Shown here: piece after piece, positions 8,702 through 17,242 of the stretch
How the letters are laid out: the number at the start of each line of letters is the position of its first letter
Numbering within the stretch: the stretch's first letter is position 1
From: Eubacteriales bacterium
GTDB taxonomy: Bacteria > Bacillota > Clostridia > Peptostreptococcales > Acidaminobacteraceae
Assembly: GCA_030625285.1 (NCBI GenBank)
Contig: DAOURC010000003.1
Span: 1 to 18,335 of the forward strand
DNA: 18,335 bases
Direction of reading: 5' to 3'
The notes under the pieces: generated by a model
Seen by the model: only the letters and a program-made list of their open reading frames with translations
What the model was told of the DNA's origin: nothing
Database searches by the model: none
Program-made: the position numbers and the translations under genes

Positions 8702-9874
8702 ATGGAAAAAATAAGAGTGGAAAATTTAACTAAAATATTTGGAAAGCATCCAAACAAAGTTCTTCAACATCTCAAAAATGGTATGAATAGAGAAGAAATC
8801 TCAAAAACCACAAAGCATACTGTAGGGGTTGGAAATGTAAGCTTTTCAGTCAGTGAAGGTGAAACTTTTGTAATTATGGGGCTTTCAGGAAGCGGAAAAT
8901 CGACTTTGATAAGATGTATAAACTTATTGAATAAACCGACAGATGGAAAGATTTTTGTAGATGATGAAAATATTTTAGAGTTTGATAAAAAAAAGCTAAG
9001 AGAATATAGACAAAATAAAGTAGCTATGGTTTTTCAGCACTTTGGACTTTTCAGTCATAAAAATGTTATTCAAAATGTAGAATTTGGACTTGAAATAAAA
9101 GGCGTAAAAAAAGAACAGCGATATAAAAAGAGTATGGAAATGCTAAAAATAGTAGGATTGGAAGGTTGGGAAGATTATAATATTTCTCAACTTAGCGGGG
9201 GTATGAAGCAGAGAGTAGGACTTGCAAGAGCTCTTGCCAACGATCCGGAAATAATGCTCATGGATGAACCTTTTAGTGCTCTTGATCCACTGATTAGAAG
9301 AGATATGCATGATGAACTGCTGGATATTCAGTCGAAGTTTAAAAAGACTATAATCTTCATCACTCATGACGTAAATGAGGCGTTTAAGCTCGGTGATAGA
9401 ATTGCGGTGTTGAAAGACGGTGAAATCATTCAAATCGGTACACCTGAAGAAATTCTTGATAATCCAGAGAATGATTATATAAGCAACTTTATTCAGGATA
9501 TCGATCGAAGTAGAATTTTAAAAGCCGAAAACATCATGAGAAAATCTGCAATGAAGTTGGGAAGATTAACAAAACCAAAAATTGCTTTAGGAATAATCGA
9601 CGATTCTGACTTTGAATACGGCTTTATCATAGATAGAGAAACCGGCAAAGTTGAAGGTGTTGTCGATGCAGACGACGTGCTTAGAGCGGGCAAAGAAAAA
9701 ATAAGCATTGAAGATGTAATGCATACGAATTTCAAGGCGGTTAATAAAAACGCTTATGTTAAAGAAATCATAGAACTTGCTCTCGAGACAAAATATCCAA
9801 TTGCCGTTCTTGATGACGACGAAAGATTTGTAGGAAGAATCCATCGTGGAACCTTGCTAAAATCTTTAGTTTAA
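8702..9874 (+). CDS. opuAA: Glycine betaine/proline ABC transporter ATP-binding protein with CBS domains
   Basis: A 390-residue ATPase. Walker A is GLSGSGKST (60-68), the Q-loop is Q112, the signature is LSGGM (164-168), Walker B is IMLMDEP (184-190) and the switch histidine is H222. Residues 1-45 contain the N-terminal extension typical of OpuAA/ProV, and residues 278-390 form a pair of CBS motifs (ENIMRKSAM at the start of the first, EDVMHTNFKAV in the second). It hydrolyses ATP on the cytoplasmic face to drive solute uptake. In OpuA-type transporters the CBS pair senses ionic strength, and in several Firmicutes it binds c-di-AMP, which inhibits transport; the same may hold here. It follows the permease stop by 12 bases, with AGGAGG overlapping that stop. 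No terminator follows: the his promoter begins seven bases after its stop. Confidence 0.93.
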   Translation: MEKIRVENLTKIFGKHPNKVLQHLKNGMNREEISKTTKHTVGVGNVSFSVSEGETFVIMGLSGSGKSTLIRCINLLNKPTDGKIFVDDENILEFDKKKLREYRQNKVAMVFQHFGLFSHKNVIQNVEFGLEIKGVKKEQRYKKSMEMLKIVGLEGWEDYNISQLSGGMKQRVGLARALANDPEIMLMDEPFSALDPLIRRDMHDELLDIQSKFKKTIIFITHDVNEAFKLGDRIAVLKDGEIIQIGTPEEILDNPENDYISNFIQDIDRSRILKAENIMRKSAMKLGRLTKPKIALGIIDDSDFEYGFIIDRETGKVEGVVDADDVLRAGKEKISIEDVMHTNFKAVNKNAYVKEIIELALETKYPIAVLDDDERFVGRIHRGTLLKSLV

Positions 9875-9880
9875 AAACAC

Positions 9881-9909
9881 TTGCATAATTATTAATGCGG
9901 TGATATACT
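9881..9909 (+). promoter_or_regulatory. Promoter of the histidine operon
   Basis: TTGCAT (9881-9886), a 17-bp spacer and TATACT (9904-9909) preceded by TGA (an extended -10). Transcription should begin near 9916. It lies directly after the opuAA stop codon. Confidence 0.85.
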
Positions 9910-9944
9910 TATGCAAATTAAGAATTTAGCAGGAGAAGATGAAA

Positions 9945-10007
9945 ATGTTATCTAAAATATCATATTTAATACAATTACATCATCATCATAGATTAAAGAG
10001 TTTGTAA
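9945..10007 (+). CDS. hisL: Histidine operon leader peptide with four consecutive His codons
   Basis: AGGAGA at 9931-9936 is followed by a short frame starting ATG at 9945, eight bases away (an in-frame ATG at 9939 would be too close). It encodes 20 residues, MLSKISYLIQLHHHHRLKSL, ending in TAA. The four His codons, all CAT, lie at 9978-9989. The position 35 bases after the his promoter, the good ribosome-binding site, the run of regulated codons and the downstream alternative RNA helices all match an attenuation leader peptide, whose translation measures charged tRNA-His. The peptide itself probably has no other function. It is too short for gene finders and would usually be missed. Confidence 0.88.
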   Translation: MLSKISYLIQLHHHHRLKSL

Positions 10008-10135
10008 GAATGGACTGAAAAAATGTTCATAGATGCAAGCTCTAATTGCTTTGTTTTAAGAGAGCTTGAATCTATGATGGAAAAGTAATAAATATACTTA
10101 CCATATGGGTTTAATGCCCATATGGTTTTTTAATT
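9984..10135 (+). promoter_or_regulatory. Ribosome-mediated transcription attenuator of the his operon
   Basis: Read by eye, the leader offers mutually exclusive helices. (a) 9984-9994, the last His codons, pairs with 10069-10079 (11 bp). (b) 9997-10006, the end of the peptide frame, pairs with 10034-10043 (10 bp, two G-U). (c) 10027-10043 pairs with 10061-10077 (16 of 17). (d) 10072-10087 pairs with 10095-10108 (13 bp with a bulge and an internal loop) and would be the antiterminator. (e) The terminator stem is 10100-10109 with 10117-10126. A ribosome stalled at the first His codon covers (a) but leaves (b) free, so (d) can form and transcription continues. A ribosome at the stop codon blocks (b), (c) forms and termination follows. 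Without translation, (a) and (b) nest and termination follows. The mechanism is inference from pairing. Confidence 0.75.
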
Positions 10136-10137
10136 TT
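10100..10137 (+). terminator. Attenuator terminator upstream of hisZ
   Basis: CCATATGGG (10101-10109) and CCCATATGG (10117-10125) form a perfect 9-bp stem, extended by one A-T pair, with a 7-base loop. TTTTTTTAATTTTTT follows. It ends 19 bases before the hisZ start, so it can only act as a leader (regulated) terminator. Confidence 0.92.
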
Positions 10138-10155
10138 TTGGATGGAGGAAATGGT

Positions 10156-11106
10156 ATGCAATTTAAAAGTATTTTAGAGGAATTGGCGGCAACTAAATTT
10201 AGAAAAAACATCGAGAGAGAGTTGGAGGATTATTTTGAAGATAGTGGTTATTGGATGATTGAACCGAAAATCTTTCAAAGTTATGATGAGTTTGTCTGTT
10301 CGAATCTTAGAACAGATAGTAAAAAGACTGTCAAGGTGCTTTCGGGTAATTCCGAAGTCTATATATTGAGACCCGATATTACGATGAATGTTTTGAGAAA
10401 GATTTTTAGCAAATGGGAAAACGACAAACCGTTGAAGGTTTATTACAATTCTAAAATTTATCTCAATAACGAAAATTATAATATCAAGGAAATGAGACAA
10501 ATGGGAATTGAATATCTAGGAGAGGATTCGTTATTGGCGGATCAAGAGATGATAACCATGGCTGTCAATCTGATGAAAAAAATTGATCGACCATTTATTT
10601 TAGAACTGGGATCAAGCAAGTATTTAGATAGTTATTTTGAAGAAATCGATGTCGATATCGAACTTGAAATCAAGATCAAGAATTATATTGCAAAGAAGAA
10701 CAAGCATGGGCTTAAAAGTTTATTGAAAAAAAATAATATTAAAAGCCTTCTATTAGAAAATATATTGACTATGCAAGGAGATATGGAAGAGGTTATTAAT
10801 CAAGCTAGAGAATATCCGATGAATATCGGGATGCAAAATGCCTTAAAGGAATTGGAAGATTTAAAAGACATCTTTGCCAGCAATAAAATGATTCCATATA
10901 TCCACTTCGATTTATCCATGATTGCGGATTTGGATTATTATGATGGAATCATATTTAAAGGATATTATTTTCAGTCAAACAAAAAAATTCTAAGCGGTGG
11001 ACGATATGATCGTCTAACGGAGAAATTTGGAGAAAAAGCATCAGCTATAGGATTTTCTGTAGATATGGATGAATTTGTAGGATTGTTGCTTAAGGAGGCA
11101 AAATAA
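10156..11106 (+). CDS. hisZ: ATP phosphoribosyltransferase regulatory subunit HisZ
   Basis: A 316-residue paralogue of histidyl-tRNA synthetase that lacks the C-terminal anticodon-binding domain. The start is ATG 10156, seven bases after GGAGG; a longer frame from 10105 would translate the terminator hairpin and is rejected. Remnants of class II synthetase motifs are visible: RPDITMNVLRKI near residue 72, RQMGIEYLG near residue 115, and SGGRYDRLTEKFGEKASAIGFSVDM near the end. HisZ has no synthetase activity but is required with the short form of HisG to build the active, histidine-inhibited ATP phosphoribosyltransferase. The next gene is exactly that short HisG, overlapping by one base, which confirms the identification. 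Confidence 0.92.
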   Translation: MQFKSILEELAATKFRKNIERELEDYFEDSGYWMIEPKIFQSYDEFVCSNLRTDSKKTVKVLSGNSEVYILRPDITMNVLRKIFSKWENDKPLKVYYNSKIYLNNENYNIKEMRQMGIEYLGEDSLLADQEMITMAVNLMKKIDRPFILELGSSKYLDSYFEEIDVDIELEIKIKNYIAKKNKHGLKSLLKKNNIKSLLLENILTMQGDMEEVINQAREYPMNIGMQNALKELEDLKDIFASNKMIPYIHFDLSMIADLDYYDGIIFKGYYFQSNKKILSGGRYDRLTEKFGEKASAIGFSVDMDEFVGLLLKEAK

Positions 11107-11726
11107 TGGATAAACTCACGATAGCTCTTGCAAAAGGAAGACTCGCGGATGAAGGATTAAAATTATTCGAAAAATATGACTTAGTCTCGAATATTGATCA
11201 AGAATCAAGAAAACTGAAGTTTACCAACAACGAAAAAAATATAACATTCATTTTTGTAAAACCATCTGATGTAATCACATATGTAGAAAAAGGCGTTGCC
11301 GATATAGGTATAGTTGGAAAGGACATTCTTTTAGAATCTGAGAGTGATGTTTATGAAATCATGGATCTGGGTTTTGGAAAATGCAAGTTTTCAATTGCGG
11401 GATTCAAAGAACAATCGATATTCAAGAAGAATGAAGTGCTGAAAATTGCTACAAAGTATCCAAACTATGTTTATAGCATTTTCAAGGAAAGAGATCAAAA
11501 GATTGAAGTGATTAAACTGAATGGTTCAGTTGAACTCGCTCCGATCATGGGGCTTGCAGATGTCATAGTTGATATTGTTCAAACTGGAAGCACTTTGAAA
11601 GCCAACGATTTAGTGGTTTTAGAAGATTTGGAAGATATAAGTGCGAGACTTATTGCAAATAAAGTCAGTTATAGATTTAAGTTCGGGCTTATAGAGCAAA
11701 TTGAAGAGATTCTAGGAGGGAAATAA
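11106..11726 (+). CDS. hisG: ATP phosphoribosyltransferase catalytic subunit, short form
   Basis: A 206-residue cytosolic enzyme catalysing the first committed step: ATP + PRPP to phosphoribosyl-ATP + pyrophosphate. Its length and the absence of a C-terminal regulatory domain mark it as the HisG-S type that needs HisZ. Motifs: the N-terminal LTIALAKGRL and the PRPP-binding loop DIVQTGSTLKAN at 156-167. Its ATG overlaps the hisZ stop as TAATG, which suggests translational coupling and matched amounts of the two subunits. Feedback inhibition by histidine would act through HisZ. Confidence 0.97.
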   Translation: MDKLTIALAKGRLADEGLKLFEKYDLVSNIDQESRKLKFTNNEKNITFIFVKPSDVITYVEKGVADIGIVGKDILLESESDVYEIMDLGFGKCKFSIAGFKEQSIFKKNEVLKIATKYPNYVYSIFKERDQKIEVIKLNGSVELAPIMGLADVIVDIVQTGSTLKANDLVVLEDLEDISARLIANKVSYRFKFGLIEQIEEILGGK

Positions 11727-11727
11727 A

Positions 11728-13014
11728 ATGATTAAATACTTCAACGCACAAAATGACATGGATAAGATTGAGAGACTCATTAAAAGAACTCAGATGGAAT
11801 CGGAAGACATCATAATTAAAGTCAACGAAATCATCAAAGATGTTAGGGAAAATGGAGATAAAAGCATTAGTAAATATACTTTAAAATTTGATGGAGTAGA
11901 TTTAGAAAATGTGAAGGTAACAGATGAAGAATTTAAAGAAGCAAAAGAGAATATAGATCCAAAGTTAAAAAGTTCATTAGAAAAAGCTATTGATAATATC
12001 ACTGAATTTCATAAAAAGCAGATAAAAAAGAGTTTTACATTTAAAAAAGGTAGCGACATTATCTTAGGACAATTGATTAATCCTATTGAAAAAGTCGGCA
12101 TTTATGTTCCAGGAGGAACGGCTTCTTACCCTTCGACTGTTATGATGAATGTCATTCCTGCCAAGCTTGCTGGAGTAAAAGACATTGTAATTACCACACC
12201 AGCTAGCAGAACGGGAAAAATAAAAGATTCGGTTTTAGTTGCAGCTGATTTGCTTGGAGTGAAGAGTGTATATAAAATTGGTGGTGCTCAGGCGGTAGCG
12301 GCGTTGTCATTCGGAACAGAAACAATATCCAAAGTAGATAAAATTGTCGGACCGGGTAATATATATGTTGCCATGGCTAAAAGAAGTGTTTCTGGAATCG
12401 TCGGAATCGACATGATTGCAGGCCCTAGTGAAGTCTTGATTTTAGCTGATGAATCGGCAAACCCCAAATATATTGCTGCTGATATGATTGCGCAAGCTGA
12501 ACATGATGAAAGAGCGGCGTCTATTGTCGTTACGGAATGTGAGAGATTAGGCGAAAAAATTAAAGAAGAATTGAAAATTCAATTGAGTAAACTAGACAGG
12601 CGAGAAATAGCGGAAAAGGCGCTTACTGACTATGGAGCAATAATTCTAACTAGTTGTAAAAAAGAAACCTTTGAGATCGCGAATAGATTGGCACCAGAGC
12701 ATTTGGAAATTCTAACTAAAGATCCTTTTTCAGATTATAAGAAGATTAAAAATGCTGGAGCGATATTCTTAGGGGAATATACACCAGAGCCTGTTGGAGA
12801 CTATTTTGCTGGTCCCAATCATACGCTGCCGACTAGTAGAACTTCTAGATTTTCTTCGGCGCTTTCGGTTGATGATTTTTATAAAAAAACATCTTTGTTG
12901 TATTACAGTGAAAAAGCGCTTAAGGGTGCAGGGGAGGATATCATCAGACTTGCAGATGATGAATCTCTAACAGGACACGCCAATTCTATAAAAGTTAGAA
13001 TGGAAGGACTTTGA
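11728..13014 (+). CDS. hisD: Histidinol dehydrogenase
   Basis: A 428-residue zinc enzyme that carries out the last two steps, histidinol to histidinal to histidine, with two NAD+. Full length for the family. Visible elements are YVPGGTASYPST (127-138), the KIVGPGN stretch (206-211), the zinc ligands Q256 and H259 in AQAEHDERA, the catalytic pair E324-H325 in APEHLE, D358 in GDYFAGPNHTLPT, and the C-terminal GHANSI. It begins two bases after the hisG stop, behind GGAGGG. Nothing unusual. Confidence 0.98.
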   Translation: MIKYFNAQNDMDKIERLIKRTQMESEDIIIKVNEIIKDVRENGDKSISKYTLKFDGVDLENVKVTDEEFKEAKENIDPKLKSSLEKAIDNITEFHKKQIKKSFTFKKGSDIILGQLINPIEKVGIYVPGGTASYPSTVMMNVIPAKLAGVKDIVITTPASRTGKIKDSVLVAADLLGVKSVYKIGGAQAVAALSFGTETISKVDKIVGPGNIYVAMAKRSVSGIVGIDMIAGPSEVLILADESANPKYIAADMIAQAEHDERAASIVVTECERLGEKIKEELKIQLSKLDRREIAEKALTDYGAIILTSCKKETFEIANRLAPEHLEILTKDPFSDYKKIKNAGAIFLGEYTPEPVGDYFAGPNHTLPTSRTSRFSSALSVDDFYKKTSLLYYSEKALKGAGEDIIRLADDESLTGHANSIKVRMEGL

Positions 13015-13016
13015 TC

Positions 13017-14030
13017 ATGAAAAAATATGTTAGAAAAGCTGTTTTAGATTTAAAAGCATACGAAGTAAGTGATATAGATTACTCAATTAAATTGGATGCC
13101 AACGAGGGAATAGATTGGAAGGAAGGGTTGAACAGATATCCGGACAATCAAGCTGTCAAGTTGATAAAAGCCTTAAGCTACATGACTGGAAAGAAAGAAA
13201 ATGAACTTATTGCAGGAAACGGTTCTAGCGAACTGATTGAACTTATACTAAAGACATTTCTCGAGCCTGAGGAATATGTCGTAAGCATTGATCCGACTTT
13301 CAGCATGTATAAAATTTTTACGACTATCTATAATGGAAAATACGAAGGGTATAAATTAGTCGACAATCGATATTTTGACACGGAAGGTTTTATCAAATTT
13401 ATCAATGAAACAAAGGCCAAAATTGTCATGCTCAGCAATCCCAATAATCCGACTGGAAGTTTTATTGAAAAAGAATCCATTGAAAAAATCTTAATAGAAT
13501 CTGATGCGATAGTTGTAATTGACGAGGCGTATATCGAGTTTGCAAAAGACAGTGTCATCGATATGATCAATGATTATGAAAATTTGATTGTGCTTAGAAC
13601 GTTCTCAAAAGCGTATGCAGTGGCTGGAATAAGGCTAGGGTATTTAGCGGCGAACGAGTCGATAGTGAAATATATAAAGAGGGTGAAATCTCCGTATAAT
13701 TTAAATGTTATTTCCCAGGAAATAGGTTTAAAAGCCCTTGAAAATATTGATGGTGTAAATAAAAACATAGAATTGATTAAAGAAGAAAGAGAGAAAGTAT
13801 GGAAAGTACTCGACAAACTCGGATTGAATCCAATTCCATCACATGCAAATTTTATCCTTTTTCAAGGCGACGATAAGTTGAATGATTACCTTAAATCTTT
13901 TGGTATTTTAATAAGAGAATTTGGTGGTGATTTAAAGGGATACATTCGAATGACGATTGGAACTCAAGAGGAAAATGAGATGGTTGTCGAGAAAATCAGG
14001 AGGTATTACGATGAGAAGTGCCAAGATTGA
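13017..14030 (+). CDS. hisC: Histidinol-phosphate aminotransferase
   Basis: A 337-residue PLP-dependent enzyme of aminotransferase class I/II that converts imidazole-acetol phosphate and glutamate to histidinol phosphate. Motifs: LDANEGID near the N-terminus, NPNNPTG (141-147), IDEAY with D169, and the PLP lysine K198 in TFSKAYAVAGIRLGYL. The start is taken as ATG 13017, eight bases after AAGGA. A TTG at 13011 would overlap hisD but is too close to the ribosome-binding site. Its 3' end overlaps the hisB start region by 20 bases. Confidence 0.95.
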   Translation: MKKYVRKAVLDLKAYEVSDIDYSIKLDANEGIDWKEGLNRYPDNQAVKLIKALSYMTGKKENELIAGNGSSELIELILKTFLEPEEYVVSIDPTFSMYKIFTTIYNGKYEGYKLVDNRYFDTEGFIKFINETKAKIVMLSNPNNPTGSFIEKESIEKILIESDAIVVIDEAYIEFAKDSVIDMINDYENLIVLRTFSKAYAVAGIRLGYLAANESIVKYIKRVKSPYNLNVISQEIGLKALENIDGVNKNIELIKEEREKVWKVLDKLGLNPIPSHANFILFQGDDKLNDYLKSFGILIREFGGDLKGYIRMTIGTQEENEMVVEKIRRYYDEKCQD

Positions 14031-14589
14031 AAGGGATACTAGAGAGACTAGTATTAATCTGATTTTAAATTTAGATGGAACAGGGAAGGCTGAAATTGAT
14101 ACGGGAATTGGATTTCTAGATCATATGCTGGTAAGTCTAGGTTTTTATAGCGGATTTGATATTATTCTGAAGTGTGAAGGCGATTTAGAGGTGGATGACC
14201 ATCACAGCGTCGAGGATATTGGGATTGTTTTAGGGAAAGGTTTGTTAGAGGCTATTGGAGATAGACGAGGAATAAAAAGATTCTCCAGTATGACAACGCC
14301 TATGGATGAGAGCTTGGCCATTGTATCGATAGATATAGGTAATAGACCGTATTTGGTTTATAATTTGGAATTCAACAGAGAGAAAATCGGACAAATGGAC
14401 ACGCAAAATTTCAAAGAATTTTTTAGGGCTTTCGCTTTTGAATCGAGGATGAACCTGCATGTGAATCTTTTATATGGCGAAAATGAGCATCATAAGATAG
14501 AAGCTGTTTTTAAAAGTTTGGGAAGGGCGTTGAAAGATGCTGTAACGGTTATGGATGATCAAATTGCATCGACAAAAGGGGTTTTGTAA
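14011..14589 (+). CDS. hisB: Imidazoleglycerol-phosphate dehydratase
   Basis: A 192-residue monofunctional dehydratase that turns imidazole-glycerol phosphate into imidazole-acetol phosphate. The manganese ligands are visible in FLDHML (H38), DDHHSVED (H64, H65, E68) and ENEHHKIEA (H160, H161, E164). The start at 14011 lies seven bases after AGGAGG; the frame is open further upstream inside hisC, but that extension has no ribosome-binding site and no family counterpart. It is not fused to a histidinol-phosphate phosphatase domain, unlike HisB of enteric bacteria, so that activity must come from elsewhere. Confidence 0.97.
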   Translation: MRSAKIERDTRETSINLILNLDGTGKAEIDTGIGFLDHMLVSLGFYSGFDIILKCEGDLEVDDHHSVEDIGIVLGKGLLEAIGDRRGIKRFSSMTTPMDESLAIVSIDIGNRPYLVYNLEFNREKIGQMDTQNFKEFFRAFAFESRMNLHVNLLYGENEHHKIEAVFKSLGRALKDAVTVMDDQIASTKGVL

Positions 14590-15209
14590 TGAATGTTATT
14601 GTTGATTATGGTTTAGGCAACATAAATTCTGTTCAAACTGCACTAAAAATTGCAGGGATTGATACGGTAATTACAGATGAAATAGAAAAGATAATAAATG
14701 CCGATTTTGTTTTATTGCCGGGAGTAGGAGCGTTTAGAGATGCGATAAGTCTTTTGAAGGAAAAAGGACTGGATATCGCGATAAAAAAATTTGCGGATAC
14801 CGGCAAACCGTTGGTTGGAATATGCCTCGGTATGCAGCTTTTATATGATAAGAGTTATGAATATGGTGAATATGAAGGGCTCGGTCTTATTTCCGGTGAG
14901 ATAGTCAAATTGGAAAAAGAAAAAAAGATTCCTCATATGGGATGGAATAATTTAATAATAAAAAAAGAAGATACATTATTAAAGTATATTAAACCTGATG
15001 ATTATGTGTACTTTGTGCATTCTTACTATGCGAAGTCTTCAAATGACGAAATGTTGGCTTATACAGAGTATGGAGAAATTATTCCCGCTATAGTCAGAAA
15101 TAAAAATGTGATAGGATTTCAATTTCATCCAGAAAAAAGTGGACAGGTTGGAGCGAATCTATTAAAAGCCTTGGGAGAGATGATAAATGATTATATTTCC
15201 AGCAATTGA
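14589..15209 (+). CDS. hisH: Imidazole glycerol phosphate synthase glutaminase subunit
   Basis: A 206-residue class I glutamine amidotransferase that supplies ammonia to HisF. The catalytic triad is visible: C79 in GICLGMQLL, and H180 and E182 in FQFHPEKSG. The LPGVGAF oxyanion region lies at 43-49. The ATG overlaps the hisB stop (TAATG), and the 3' end overlaps hisA by 23 bases, so its translation is tightly linked to both. Confidence 0.97.
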   Translation: MNVIVDYGLGNINSVQTALKIAGIDTVITDEIEKIINADFVLLPGVGAFRDAISLLKEKGLDIAIKKFADTGKPLVGICLGMQLLYDKSYEYGEYEGLGLISGEIVKLEKEKKIPHMGWNNLIIKKEDTLLKYIKPDDYVYFVHSYYAKSSNDEMLAYTEYGEIIPAIVRNKNVIGFQFHPEKSGQVGANLLKALGEMINDYISSN

Positions 15210-15894
15210 TATAAGAAATGAAAAATGTGTGAGATTGACTCAAGGTGATTATTCCAAGATGACTGTATACGGGATTGACCCTGTTGAAGTTGCTCTTAAA
15301 TGGCAATCGAAGGGCGCTGAGTATTTGCATATAGTTGATTTAGATGGAGCTAAAGATGGGAAAAGAGTCAATGGAGCTGTTATTGAAAAAATTGCGAAAA
15401 GTGTTGAGGTCCCTATTCAAGTCGGCGGCGGAATCAGAGATACAAAGACGGTTGAAGAGTTGCTGAGCGCAGGCATAAGTAGAGTGATAATTGGTACTAG
15501 AGCAATAAAAGATTTGAAGTGGCTTAGTGAACTTGTTAGAGTTTATGGAGAAAAAATCTGTGTTTCCATTGATGCTAAAAATGGATTAGTCGCTACCGAT
15601 GGGTGGAAACAAATCAGTGAAATCAAAGCAGTGGATTTTGCCGTGAATTTAGAAAATATCGGTGTTAGGACGATTGTTTATACTGATATTCAAAAAGATG
15701 GAATGCTAAAAGGACCTAATTTCAAAATGTACGAGCAACTCATGAAAAAAGTAAATTTAGACATTATCGCATCTGGTGGAGTGTCGACAATAGAGGATAT
15801 TGAAATTCTAAAATCTATGGGTATATACGGTGCAATTATAGGAAAGGCCTTATATGATGAGAAAATAAAGCTAGAGGAGGCGATTTCATGTTGA
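15187..15894 (+). CDS. hisA: ProFAR isomerase (phosphoribosylformimino-AICAR-phosphate isomerase)
   Basis: A 235-residue TIM-barrel enzyme that isomerises ProFAR to PRFAR. Catalytic aspartates are D8 (FPAIDIR) and D129 (SIDAKNG). The two half-barrel phosphate sites are QVGGGIR (78-84) and ASGGVST near residue 196. ATG 15187 follows GGGAGA and lies 23 bases inside hisH. The family is close to HisF, but the FPAIDIR start, DLDGAKDG and the order of genes make it HisA. There are no signs of the dual-function PriA type, which would be expected in actinobacteria. Confidence 0.96.
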
Positions 15895-16646
15895 CCAAGA
15901 GAATAATTCCGTGTCTTGATGTAAGAAATGGAAGAGTTGTAAAAGGGAAAAAATTTGACGACATCATCGACGTAGAAGACCCTGAAATTCTTGGTAAATA
16001 CTACAGTGATATGGGCGCTGATGAATTGGTGTTTTACGATATCACTGCATCGAATGAAAAAAGGGGGATTTCTCTAGATTTTGTTGAAAAAGTCGCAAAA
16101 AAAATAAATATACCCTTTTGTGTTGGTGGAGGAGTTAAGACTATAGATGATTTTGTTGAGATACTTAGAAAAGGAGCAGATAAGGTTTCTGTAAATTCTG
16201 CTGCTGTCAAAAATCCTGATCTTATAAAAGAGGCAGCTGAAAAATTTGGTAATCAATGTGTTGTCTTATCTATTGATGCAAAGAAAACAGATGCAAATAT
16301 ATGGCATGTTTTTATAAATGGAGGGAGAACCGATACCGGTATTGATGTCGTTGAGTGGGCAAAGCGAGGTTGTGGTTTAGGAGCCGGGGAAATTGTGGTC
16401 AATAGCATCGATGAAGACGGCATGAAAAAAGGTTATGATATCGAATTATTGAAGCGAATTACCGATATTGTAAATGTTCCGGTTATCGCATCGGGCGGAG
16501 CTGGAGAAATGAAGCATTTCTACGATGCTTTAAAAGAAGCTGATGTAGATGGAGTATTAGCGGCATCTGTATTCCATTATAAAGAAATATCAATAAAGGA
16601 ATTAAAAGATTATCTTAAAAATAAAGGTATCGAGGTGAGGATCTAA
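15888..16646 (+). CDS. hisF: Imidazole glycerol phosphate synthase cyclase subunit
   Basis: A 252-residue TIM-barrel cyclase that uses HisH-derived ammonia to convert PRFAR into imidazole-glycerol phosphate and AICAR. It carries the catalytic aspartates D11 ([16 protein letters not shown]) and D130 (SIDAKK), the FYDITAS strand, and phosphate-binding CVGGGVKT and ASGGAGE. It overlaps hisA by seven bases, with AGGAGG at 15875-15880. Standard length and motifs. Confidence 0.98.
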
Positions 16647-17242
16647 TGAATATCAAATACGATGAAAAAGGATTGGTTCCTGCAATAGTCCAAGATGACG
16701 CTTCGGGTAAAGTGCTGATGCTTGCCTACATGAATGAAGAAGCGGTGAATTTGACAATTGAAAAAAAACTTGCTTATTATTTTAGCCGATCAAGACAAAA
16801 ACTTTGGCTTAAGGGAGAAACATCCGGGCATTATCAACATGTGAAATCTTTTCATTATGATTGTGACAATGACACAATACTACTAAAGGTAAAACAGATA
16901 GGAGTAGCTTGCCATACGGGAAGTTTCAGTTGTTTTTTTAATGAGGTTTTTGATGAATCATCTCAAGAGAATACTATAGATAGACTCTATGAAACAATAA
17001 TGGATAGAAGAATCAATCCAAAAGAAGACTCTTATACGACTTATCTATTCAAAGAAGGAATTGATAAAATTTTAAAGAAGATAGGTGAAGAAAGCAGCGA
17101 AGTCATCATCGGCGCAAAGAACTCTAAAGAAGAACTGATTTACGAAAGCAGTGATTTGATCTATCATTTGATGGTGCTTTTGGTTAATGAAGGTATAACC
17201 CTAACTGATATTTACGGTGAATTGAAAAAGCGGATGAAGTAA
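16646..17242 (+). CDS. hisIE: Bifunctional phosphoribosyl-AMP cyclohydrolase / phosphoribosyl-ATP pyrophosphatase
   Basis: A 198-residue fusion for the second and third steps. Residues 1-105 are HisI: the magnesium/zinc site is in HYDCDNDT (D72, C73, D74, D76) with C89 and C96 in [10 protein letters not shown], and the [16 protein letters not shown] signature lies at 46-61. Residues about 110-198 are HisE, with [15 protein letters not shown] as the pyrophosphatase metal site. It starts in a TAATG overlap with hisF and is the last gene of the operon. No hisN/hisK-type histidinol-phosphate phosphatase follows. Confidence 0.97.

Follow-up and report, generated by a model that had tools for sequence, protein, structure and literature searches.

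A probable ribosome-mediated attenuator of a clostridial histidine operon and its likely relatives with other leader codons

The stretch of DNA analyzed here (the window, 18,335 nt) contains a histidine operon whose leader region we conclude, with a probability of roughly 0.9, to be a ribosome-mediated transcription attenuator. A first-pass annotation, made from the letters alone, had recognized, upstream of hisZ, a promoter, a 20-codon leader peptide with His codons and a series of mutually exclusive helices whose last member is a terminator, and this description is confirmed by sequence, folding and relatives. The anatomy, conservation, covariation and geometry of the leader are established by the evidence given below, and the switch would presumably depend on histidine or charged tRNA. 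Beyond this operon, the best reading is one modular scaffold with exchangeable codons. We consider it rather likely that a single homologous Firmicutes attenuator has repeatedly exchanged its sensor codons (His, Trp, Tyr, Phe and perhaps Leu) with its switching RNA remaining alignable throughout, that the trpB motif is its Trp version and sRNA_2410 a Tyr/Phe branch with a displaced terminator, and that a pairing between two leader segments, A:D, clamps the antiterminator strand until stalling.

All features are on the + strand of the window unless stated otherwise. The operon downstream of the leader has the order hisZGDCBHAFIE: hisZ (10156..11106), the first structural gene, matches PF13393 and has TIGR00443 as its top NCBIfam match, under the cut-off of that model, while hisG, hisD, hisC, hisB, hisH, hisA, hisF and hisIE (11106..17242) have NCBIfam matches above cut-offs. 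The most similar HisZ among those found, at 92%, belongs to the Eubacteriales metagenome assembly CSMAG_129. The predicted promoter (9881..9909) consists of a -35 hexamer TTGCAT (9881-9886), a 17-nt spacer and a -10 hexamer TATACT (9904-9909), with an extended -10 (TGaTATACT) whose TG lies one base 5′ of TATACT; transcription would start near 9916, judging from this promoter. An automatic consensus promoter scan did not list the his promoter, whose -35 has 3/6 consensus bases. The pattern TTGNNN-17-TAWANT with an extended -10 was found at -265 to -280 from hisZ in 7/7 relatives examined. A gene for a ProV-like glycine betaine/proline ABC transporter ATPase (8702-9874) ends 6 bases upstream of the -35 hexamer.

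The leader ORF (9945..10007), preceded by the Shine-Dalgarno sequence AGGAG (9931..9935), has 20 codons and encodes MLSKISYLIQLHHHHRLKSL, followed by a stop codon at 10005; similar leaders occur in relatives, and an alternative in-frame ATG at 9939, just 3 nt past the Shine-Dalgarno sequence, would prepend MK. Codons 12-15 form the putative regulatory run CAT CAT CAT CAT (9978..9989). A run of 3-5 His is present in 32 non-redundant members, window included, and mixes CAT and CAC in 18/32. Segment A (9983..9993), which comprises the last His codons and the Arg codon AGA, has its partner in segment D at 10070-10080. Segment B (9997..10006) pairs with 10034-10043 over 10 pairs, as the first-pass annotation had correctly proposed, and this partner lies in segment C (10027..10043), which in the termination state pairs with D at 10061-10077. 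Segment D (10061..10087) is accordingly either the 3′ strand of C:D or, with E, the 5′ strand of the antiterminator; segment E (10095..10114) is the antiterminator 3′ strand, and its positions 10100-10110 are the 5′ arm of the terminator. The antiterminator strand had been placed at 10072-10087 and is in fact longer, the strand being 10066-10087 with 10095-10114 as partner. The intrinsic terminator E:F with its U-tract occupies 10100..10137 (E:F, 10100-10126), and the hisZ Shine-Dalgarno sequence GGAGG follows at 10144..10148. Three terminator-like sites lie in 9500-10500, versus 0.4 expected in shuffles; the two others are the reverse strand of the his terminator and a site inside hisZ. The leader folds at -60.9 kcal/mol (z -6.6), and 10000-10137 alone gives a z of -5.3.

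Based on this arrangement, we propose the following switch. When charged His-tRNA is ample, the ribosome would reach the stop codon at 10005 and cover B, and C would pair with D; C:D would leave E for F, and transcription would end at about 10130-10137. When charged His-tRNA is scarce, the ribosome would wait on the first His codons, covering A and leaving B free; free B would pair with C, and D with E, such that the terminator would be blocked and the his genes transcribed. With no ribosome, either A:D around B:C or C:D would form, both of them compatible with E:F, and the default would be off. The mechanism in which stalling frees B for C and D for antitermination had been predicted at first pass, and is supported by geometry, by covariation and by folding with the ribosome masked, in which a footprint of +14 nt was assumed. 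For an RNA ending at 10112 and a ribosome stalled at the first His codon, 9.8 and 16.4 pairs were expected for B:C and D:E and 0 for C:D, while a ribosome at the stop codon gave 15.1 pairs for C:D and left 7.6 for D:E. A stall at the fourth His codon gave mostly C:D, so that it is the early His codons that matter.

The same geometry holds across the 82 non-redundant members of the alignment described below. A terminating ribosome (+14 nt assumed) covers at least half of B in 79/82 and leaves C free in 72/82, and a ribosome on the first codon of the run (+14 nt assumed, run position set by rule) leaves B free in 77/82; its cover extends over half of A or more in 58/82. C:D wins over B:C in 82/82 members when the ribosome is at the stop codon, and a stalled ribosome lets B:C prevail over C:D at equilibrium in only 47/82. 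Since the finished RNA at equilibrium favours E:F, even with a stalled ribosome, antitermination must be kinetic. Without a ribosome, C:D exceeds B:C in 54/82. The role of A:D is uncertain, because in the window without a ribosome (RNA end 10118) D:E overtakes A:D, with 13.8 versus 3.4 pairs, and because A:D exceeds D:E in just 46/82 members; equilibrium folding of the 82 members does not bear out A:D as a universal no-ribosome state, and the A:D clamp can be no more than one of a pair of default-off states. The leader has the features expected of an attenuator, namely a short ORF with its own Shine-Dalgarno sequence, a run of cognate codons, exclusive helices that include a terminator, and a fitting spacing (+14 nt assumed).

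The helices were tested on 82 non-redundant sequences (less than 80% identity), with shuffles that ignore kinship. B:C is paired in 87.2% of cells versus at most 50.6% when slid, with 91 double changes versus 30.4 in shuffles, and C:D in 87.1% versus at most 47.4%, with 149 double changes versus 50.7. The outer 9 pairs of E:F reach 98.4% versus at most 51.2% slid (92.2% over 11 pairs). The cores of A:D and D:E, which were picked after viewing the per-pair table, are paired in 85.5% versus at most 46.9% slid and in 92.2% versus at most 57.6% slid, respectively. Drawn as in the window, the full-length A:D and D:E are not conserved in their outer parts; they are paired in 74.8% and 72.3% of cells, respectively, little more than the 68.6% and 69.2% of shuffles. 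Double changes in all five helices were above 300/300 shuffles, kinship being ignored. In a swap test, a segment's own partner was better than the median foreign one in 67/81 (A:D), 78/81 (B:C), 75/82 (C:D), 79/82 (D:E) and 81/82 (E:F) cases, and five control pairings gave between 33/81 and 42/79; the numbers vary from 79 to 82 because sequences with segments under 7 nt were excluded. The sixth pairing, A:D, is therefore statistically supported, and its proposed role would be that of the clamp. The upstream regions of relatives thus bear out the first-pass expectation, with a conserved His-codon ORF and five helices that covary or co-adapt. Intergenic terminators are common; the conservation of the run, the Shine-Dalgarno sequence and the five helices over 82 non-redundant members makes a plain terminator next to an accidental His run, with the operon constitutive or under a repressor, very improbable. 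No TrpR/HisR-type protein was found in the searched part of the source genome (an assembly of 1.06 Mb, 62.8% complete), which counts as weak, provisional evidence because of this completeness.

When the window was searched against 4227 Rfam families, RF04312, the "trpB motif", was the one convincing match (10026..10137; 49.1 bits, E 2e-4, under the cut-off of 59), the remaining four having E of 2.7 or more. Judged by sequence, the window element is related to RF04312, though it is not filed there. The T-box covariance model (RF00230) found nothing in the window at E up to 5, which upholds the first-pass statement that a T-box signature is lacking. A T-box likewise senses tRNA charging and controls a terminator, translation not being needed, and T-boxes are usual in Firmicutes, with 13 matches, 9 above cut-off, in this very genome; given the missing match in the window, a T-box that directly reads tRNA-His has a vanishingly small probability. 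T-boxes coexist with the leader-peptide attenuator in the genome of the window: a gene is readable behind 7/8 of the T-boxes viewed (L001-L008), and by eye we take these genes to be ileS-, asnA-, cysK-, proS-, trpE-, serS- and thrS-like. The covariance model of the proteobacterial His leader (RF00514, His_leader) did not match the window at E up to 5 either, although the His run, the alternative helices and the terminator are alike. In the E. coli his leader A pairs with B, whereas here A pairs with D. One relative, Lutispora locus L214 (2206-2359), matched RF00514 at 41.2 bits versus a cut-off of 49. Convergence with proteobacterial His attenuation, one of the two origins suggested at first pass, is undecided.

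The C:D hairpin, the linker and the E:F terminator of RF04312 align with the window across the full length of the model, which begins at C, excludes the leader ORF, A and B, and is read as a riboswitch candidate. A single genome of 398 in the phylum sample had an above-cut-off RF04312 match, and its order was then surveyed: in this order, taken to be Lactobacillales, at least 160/295 genomes have RF04312, at least 52 of them above cut-off. Fusobacteria are said to carry the trpB motif. The first 30 loci inspected, all above cut-off, have a Trp leader in 30/30 cases, most often WQNWRR-like. Under a blind rule for choosing the leader ORF, Trp was present in 28/30 versus 19.4% of shuffles, and at least 2 Trp in 5 residues in 25/30 versus 0.89%; at the two remaining loci (L188, L189) the Trp ORF was the second choice of the rule, and these were assigned to Trp by hand. 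Among the matches listed, 40 further places (10 above and 30 under cut-off) gave 39 Trp leaders and 1 Tyr run, such that a leader ORF lies upstream in 70/70 inspected places, 69 with Trp codons and 1 with a Tyr run. Behind the first 30 loci lie 24 TrpX-like genes, 3 trpB genes and 1 reverse-transcriptase-like ORF, 2 being unreadable; the genes behind the 40 further places were judged by eye. The TrpX representative (L171) scores as a member of the NCBIfam equivalog for the tryptophan ABC transporter binding protein, and the trpB representative likewise scores as a member of its own model.

These counts bear on the alternative that the element is a metabolite-binding riboswitch, as proposed for RF04312, in which the first hairpin binds the amino acid and the short ORF is incidental. 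RF04312, with more than 900 representatives, was published as a strong riboswitch candidate (PMC11109978), and the window matches it at the E value given above; the available text of the same paper states that its authors were unable to exclude a classic attenuator. Trp or Tyr leaders in all 70 places, ranked first by the blind rule in 68 of them, and the 14 columns of an alignment of 29 stretches (see below) that are invariant or nearly so, every one of which is in a helix or the U-tract, argue against such a riboswitch, which we regard as unlikely. We conclude instead that the trpB motif is probably this same RNA design fitted with other codons. The best RF04312 match (L173, G1209:C1:26859-26965; 86.6 bits) is followed by an ORF that by eye resembles a group II intron reverse transcriptase, and an intron has possibly been inserted behind this attenuator.

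Under the cut-off, RF04312 matches were found in 20/391 genomes of the class, at 24 places including the window, and by eye 20/24 of these have a short ORF with an amino-acid run. The other four (L018, L021, L027 and L028, the last with only about 75 nt of upstream sequence) lack a leader ORF with such a run, have the appearance of fortuitous terminator pairs and were excluded from the model that we built. This covariance model, R1, was made from 29 aligned C-to-F stretches, leader ORF excluded: the window, 19 other RF04312 places and 9 hisZ-located ones selected for their His leader, with 19/29 His members in total. In the order of the window, at least 87/393 genomes have R1 matches at E up to 0.01. 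We inspected 121 places among the matches listed, down to E 2.2e-5 and with opposite-strand partners excluded. Training members account for 15 of them, and the remaining 106 were counted separately because the hisZ-found training members had been chosen for His leaders. The blindly chosen leader ORF had a strong Shine-Dalgarno sequence and ATG in 115/121 places versus 8.1% of shuffles, at least 3 His in 5 residues in 53/121 versus 0.14%, and at least 3 Tyr/Phe in 5 residues in 51/121 versus 13.0%; without training members, the last two counts were 42/106 and 47/106. A Leu run (at least 3 in 4 residues) showed no enrichment, with 8/121 versus 5.2% of shuffles, and the Leu class, resting on 6 loci before SNF transporters, is tentative. 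Two places (L105, L108) were left unclassified, and L022 was excluded from the helix alignment.

The scaffold extends beyond this order. Among 55 named HisZ-relative loci, some of them probably HisS, a search limited to His-run ORFs, and hence not blind, found a His-run leader in 30, and a same-strand R1 match is present at 29/55, several being identical to loci already counted; the loci with a leader or an R1 match include Tissierella, Tepidibacter, Lutispora, Vulcanibacillus, Gottfriedia, Haloplasma and Acholeplasmataceae. In the class of the Lactobacillales-like order, R1 matched 16 places in 11/299 genomes, and this mostly His-trained model thereby recovered several RF04312 places; leaders with His, Trp or Tyr/Phe codons were found at 12/13 of the places examined, the exception being L326. 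Within Firmicutes, the scaffold would presumably owe its spread to common descent and not to convergence. Near the match end, 120/121 R1 and 30/30 RF04312 places have at least 5 T in 8 bases, the models themselves including the U-tract. In the window the U-tract lies directly 3′ of E:F, and the hisZ Shine-Dalgarno sequence is outside this hairpin. Attenuators that sequester the ribosome-binding site do exist (PMC9413887, available text), and a leader peptide controlling hisZ translation or mRNA stability rather than termination would be their counterpart here; the U-tracts and the position of the Shine-Dalgarno sequence make this highly unlikely. The sequence of A is similar to the beginning of C and that of B to the beginning of D, and the element would accordingly appear to be a set of overlapping inverted repeats. 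R1 also matches the - strand of the window weakly at 10013-10078 (39.3 bits), as it does at many other places, and such opposite-strand matches are probably a consequence of these repeats.

Leader codons were then compared with downstream genes in 162 records with a readable gene (the 121 places of the order, 30 RF04312 places and 14 further loci, minus 3 geneless ones), the gene clusters being named by their representatives. A His leader precedes hisZ in 54/54 records (46/46 within the 121 places, 35/35 outside training) and the HisX-like binding protein in 7/7. Trp leaders precede trpB in 3/3 and TrpX-like genes in 24/26, the other 2 having Tyr/Phe leaders. Tyr/Phe leaders precede the BrnQ-type carrier in 19/19 and the TrpY-like permease in 31/33 (2 unclassified), and SNF transporters follow 12 Tyr/Phe and 6 Leu leaders; an NhaC-like protein with a Tyr leader and a reverse-transcriptase-like ORF with a Trp leader are singletons. 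At the level of sequence, the leader codons are shown to be cognate to the downstream genes for His and Trp only. For transporters known by family only (BrnQ-, SNF- and TrpX-type), the leader codons may in turn suggest substrates. The BrnQ/LIVCS-type carriers (L086, L015, L094 and others, 19 loci) are annotated as branched-chain carriers, and their position behind Tyr/Phe leaders throughout suggests an aromatic substrate. At L133 an NhaC-like antiporter follows a five-Tyr leader, and may possibly be a tyrosine transporter.

RF02863, "sRNA_2410", overlaps two R1 places. Its consensus contains segments A, B, C, D and E in the order of the window, and the Rfam structure corresponds to A:D around B:C. 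The family is present in 55/58 genomes of a family taken to be Enterococcaceae, and FSYFR forms the end of the leader in 20/20 loci inspected; by eye, the genes behind them are TrpX-like binding proteins in 17 cases and shikimate-dehydrogenase-like in 3. Shikimate-dehydrogenase-like genes, also by eye, follow FSYFR leaders at L274-L276, L328 and L330. A U-tract after E:F is absent in 13/20 RF02863 loci (L257-L276), namely those in which a pattern located E:F, and T-runs come later, mostly 50-90 nt downstream; the terminator must therefore lie elsewhere and the last step must differ, and the idea that sRNA_2410 is simply a terminated leader is weakened. In E. faecium, sRNA_2410 was detected by RNA-seq as a 195-nt RNA, with two transcripts on Northern blots, according to the available text (PMC5593968). 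Leader and switch are common to this Enterococcus RNA and the window, and the terminator is displaced.

The other origin suggested at first pass, an under-described clostridial class, does not stand, as Firmicutes His leaders had already been reported. In the parts available, Naville and Gautheret (2010) described them in bacilli before hisZ and hisS* (PMC2965389), and Ashniev et al. (2022) in the B. cereus group, Peptostreptococcaceae, Lutispora and Erysipelotrichales (PMC9413887); the latter tabulate T-boxes, HisR and attenuators by lineage and did not find RF00514 in Firmicutes. These attenuators have the same short ORF with 3-5 His before his genes, with terminator and antiterminator, and the traits by which the 2022 paper recognizes them, as far as its available text goes, are those of the window: 3-5 His, no T-box and no HisR (genome 62.8% complete). 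Lutispora thermophila is itself a case of the 2022 paper; its leader L214 aligns over the full R1, and the same contig contributed to R1 training as L012. In that paper's available text three lineages are aligned apart, whereas here one alignable scaffold also covers Trp and Tyr/Phe. In the open-access literature, supplements being outside the scope, we found no earlier link of the trpB motif or sRNA_2410 to leader peptides, nor one for Trp or Tyr leaders of such a design. Known already, then, are the Firmicutes His leaders; unreported in the literature found is their joining with RF04312 and, for leader and switch only, with RF02863. A possible function thereby emerges both for an Rfam family listed as a riboswitch candidate and for an "sRNA" validated by Northern blot, and T-boxes in Firmicutes would seem commonly to be accompanied by ribosome-mediated attenuation. 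In S. suis, trpX is under a T-box according to the available text (PMC9382623), and the same gene therefore uses either sensor. With sensor and switch being separable, an exchange of codons could be a route to a new regulatory specificity.

The scaffold also occurs in pairs: the attenuators L158 and L030 (G301:C1:3424920-3425058 and 3428576-3428704) lie 3.6 kb apart before ABC transporter genes, one with a Phe-type leader (FFSSQF) and the other with a Tyr leader (YYYYY). Such a Phe/Tyr pair was seen about 3.6 kb apart in three genomes (G493, G497 and G505) and on separate contigs in two others (G488 and G567).
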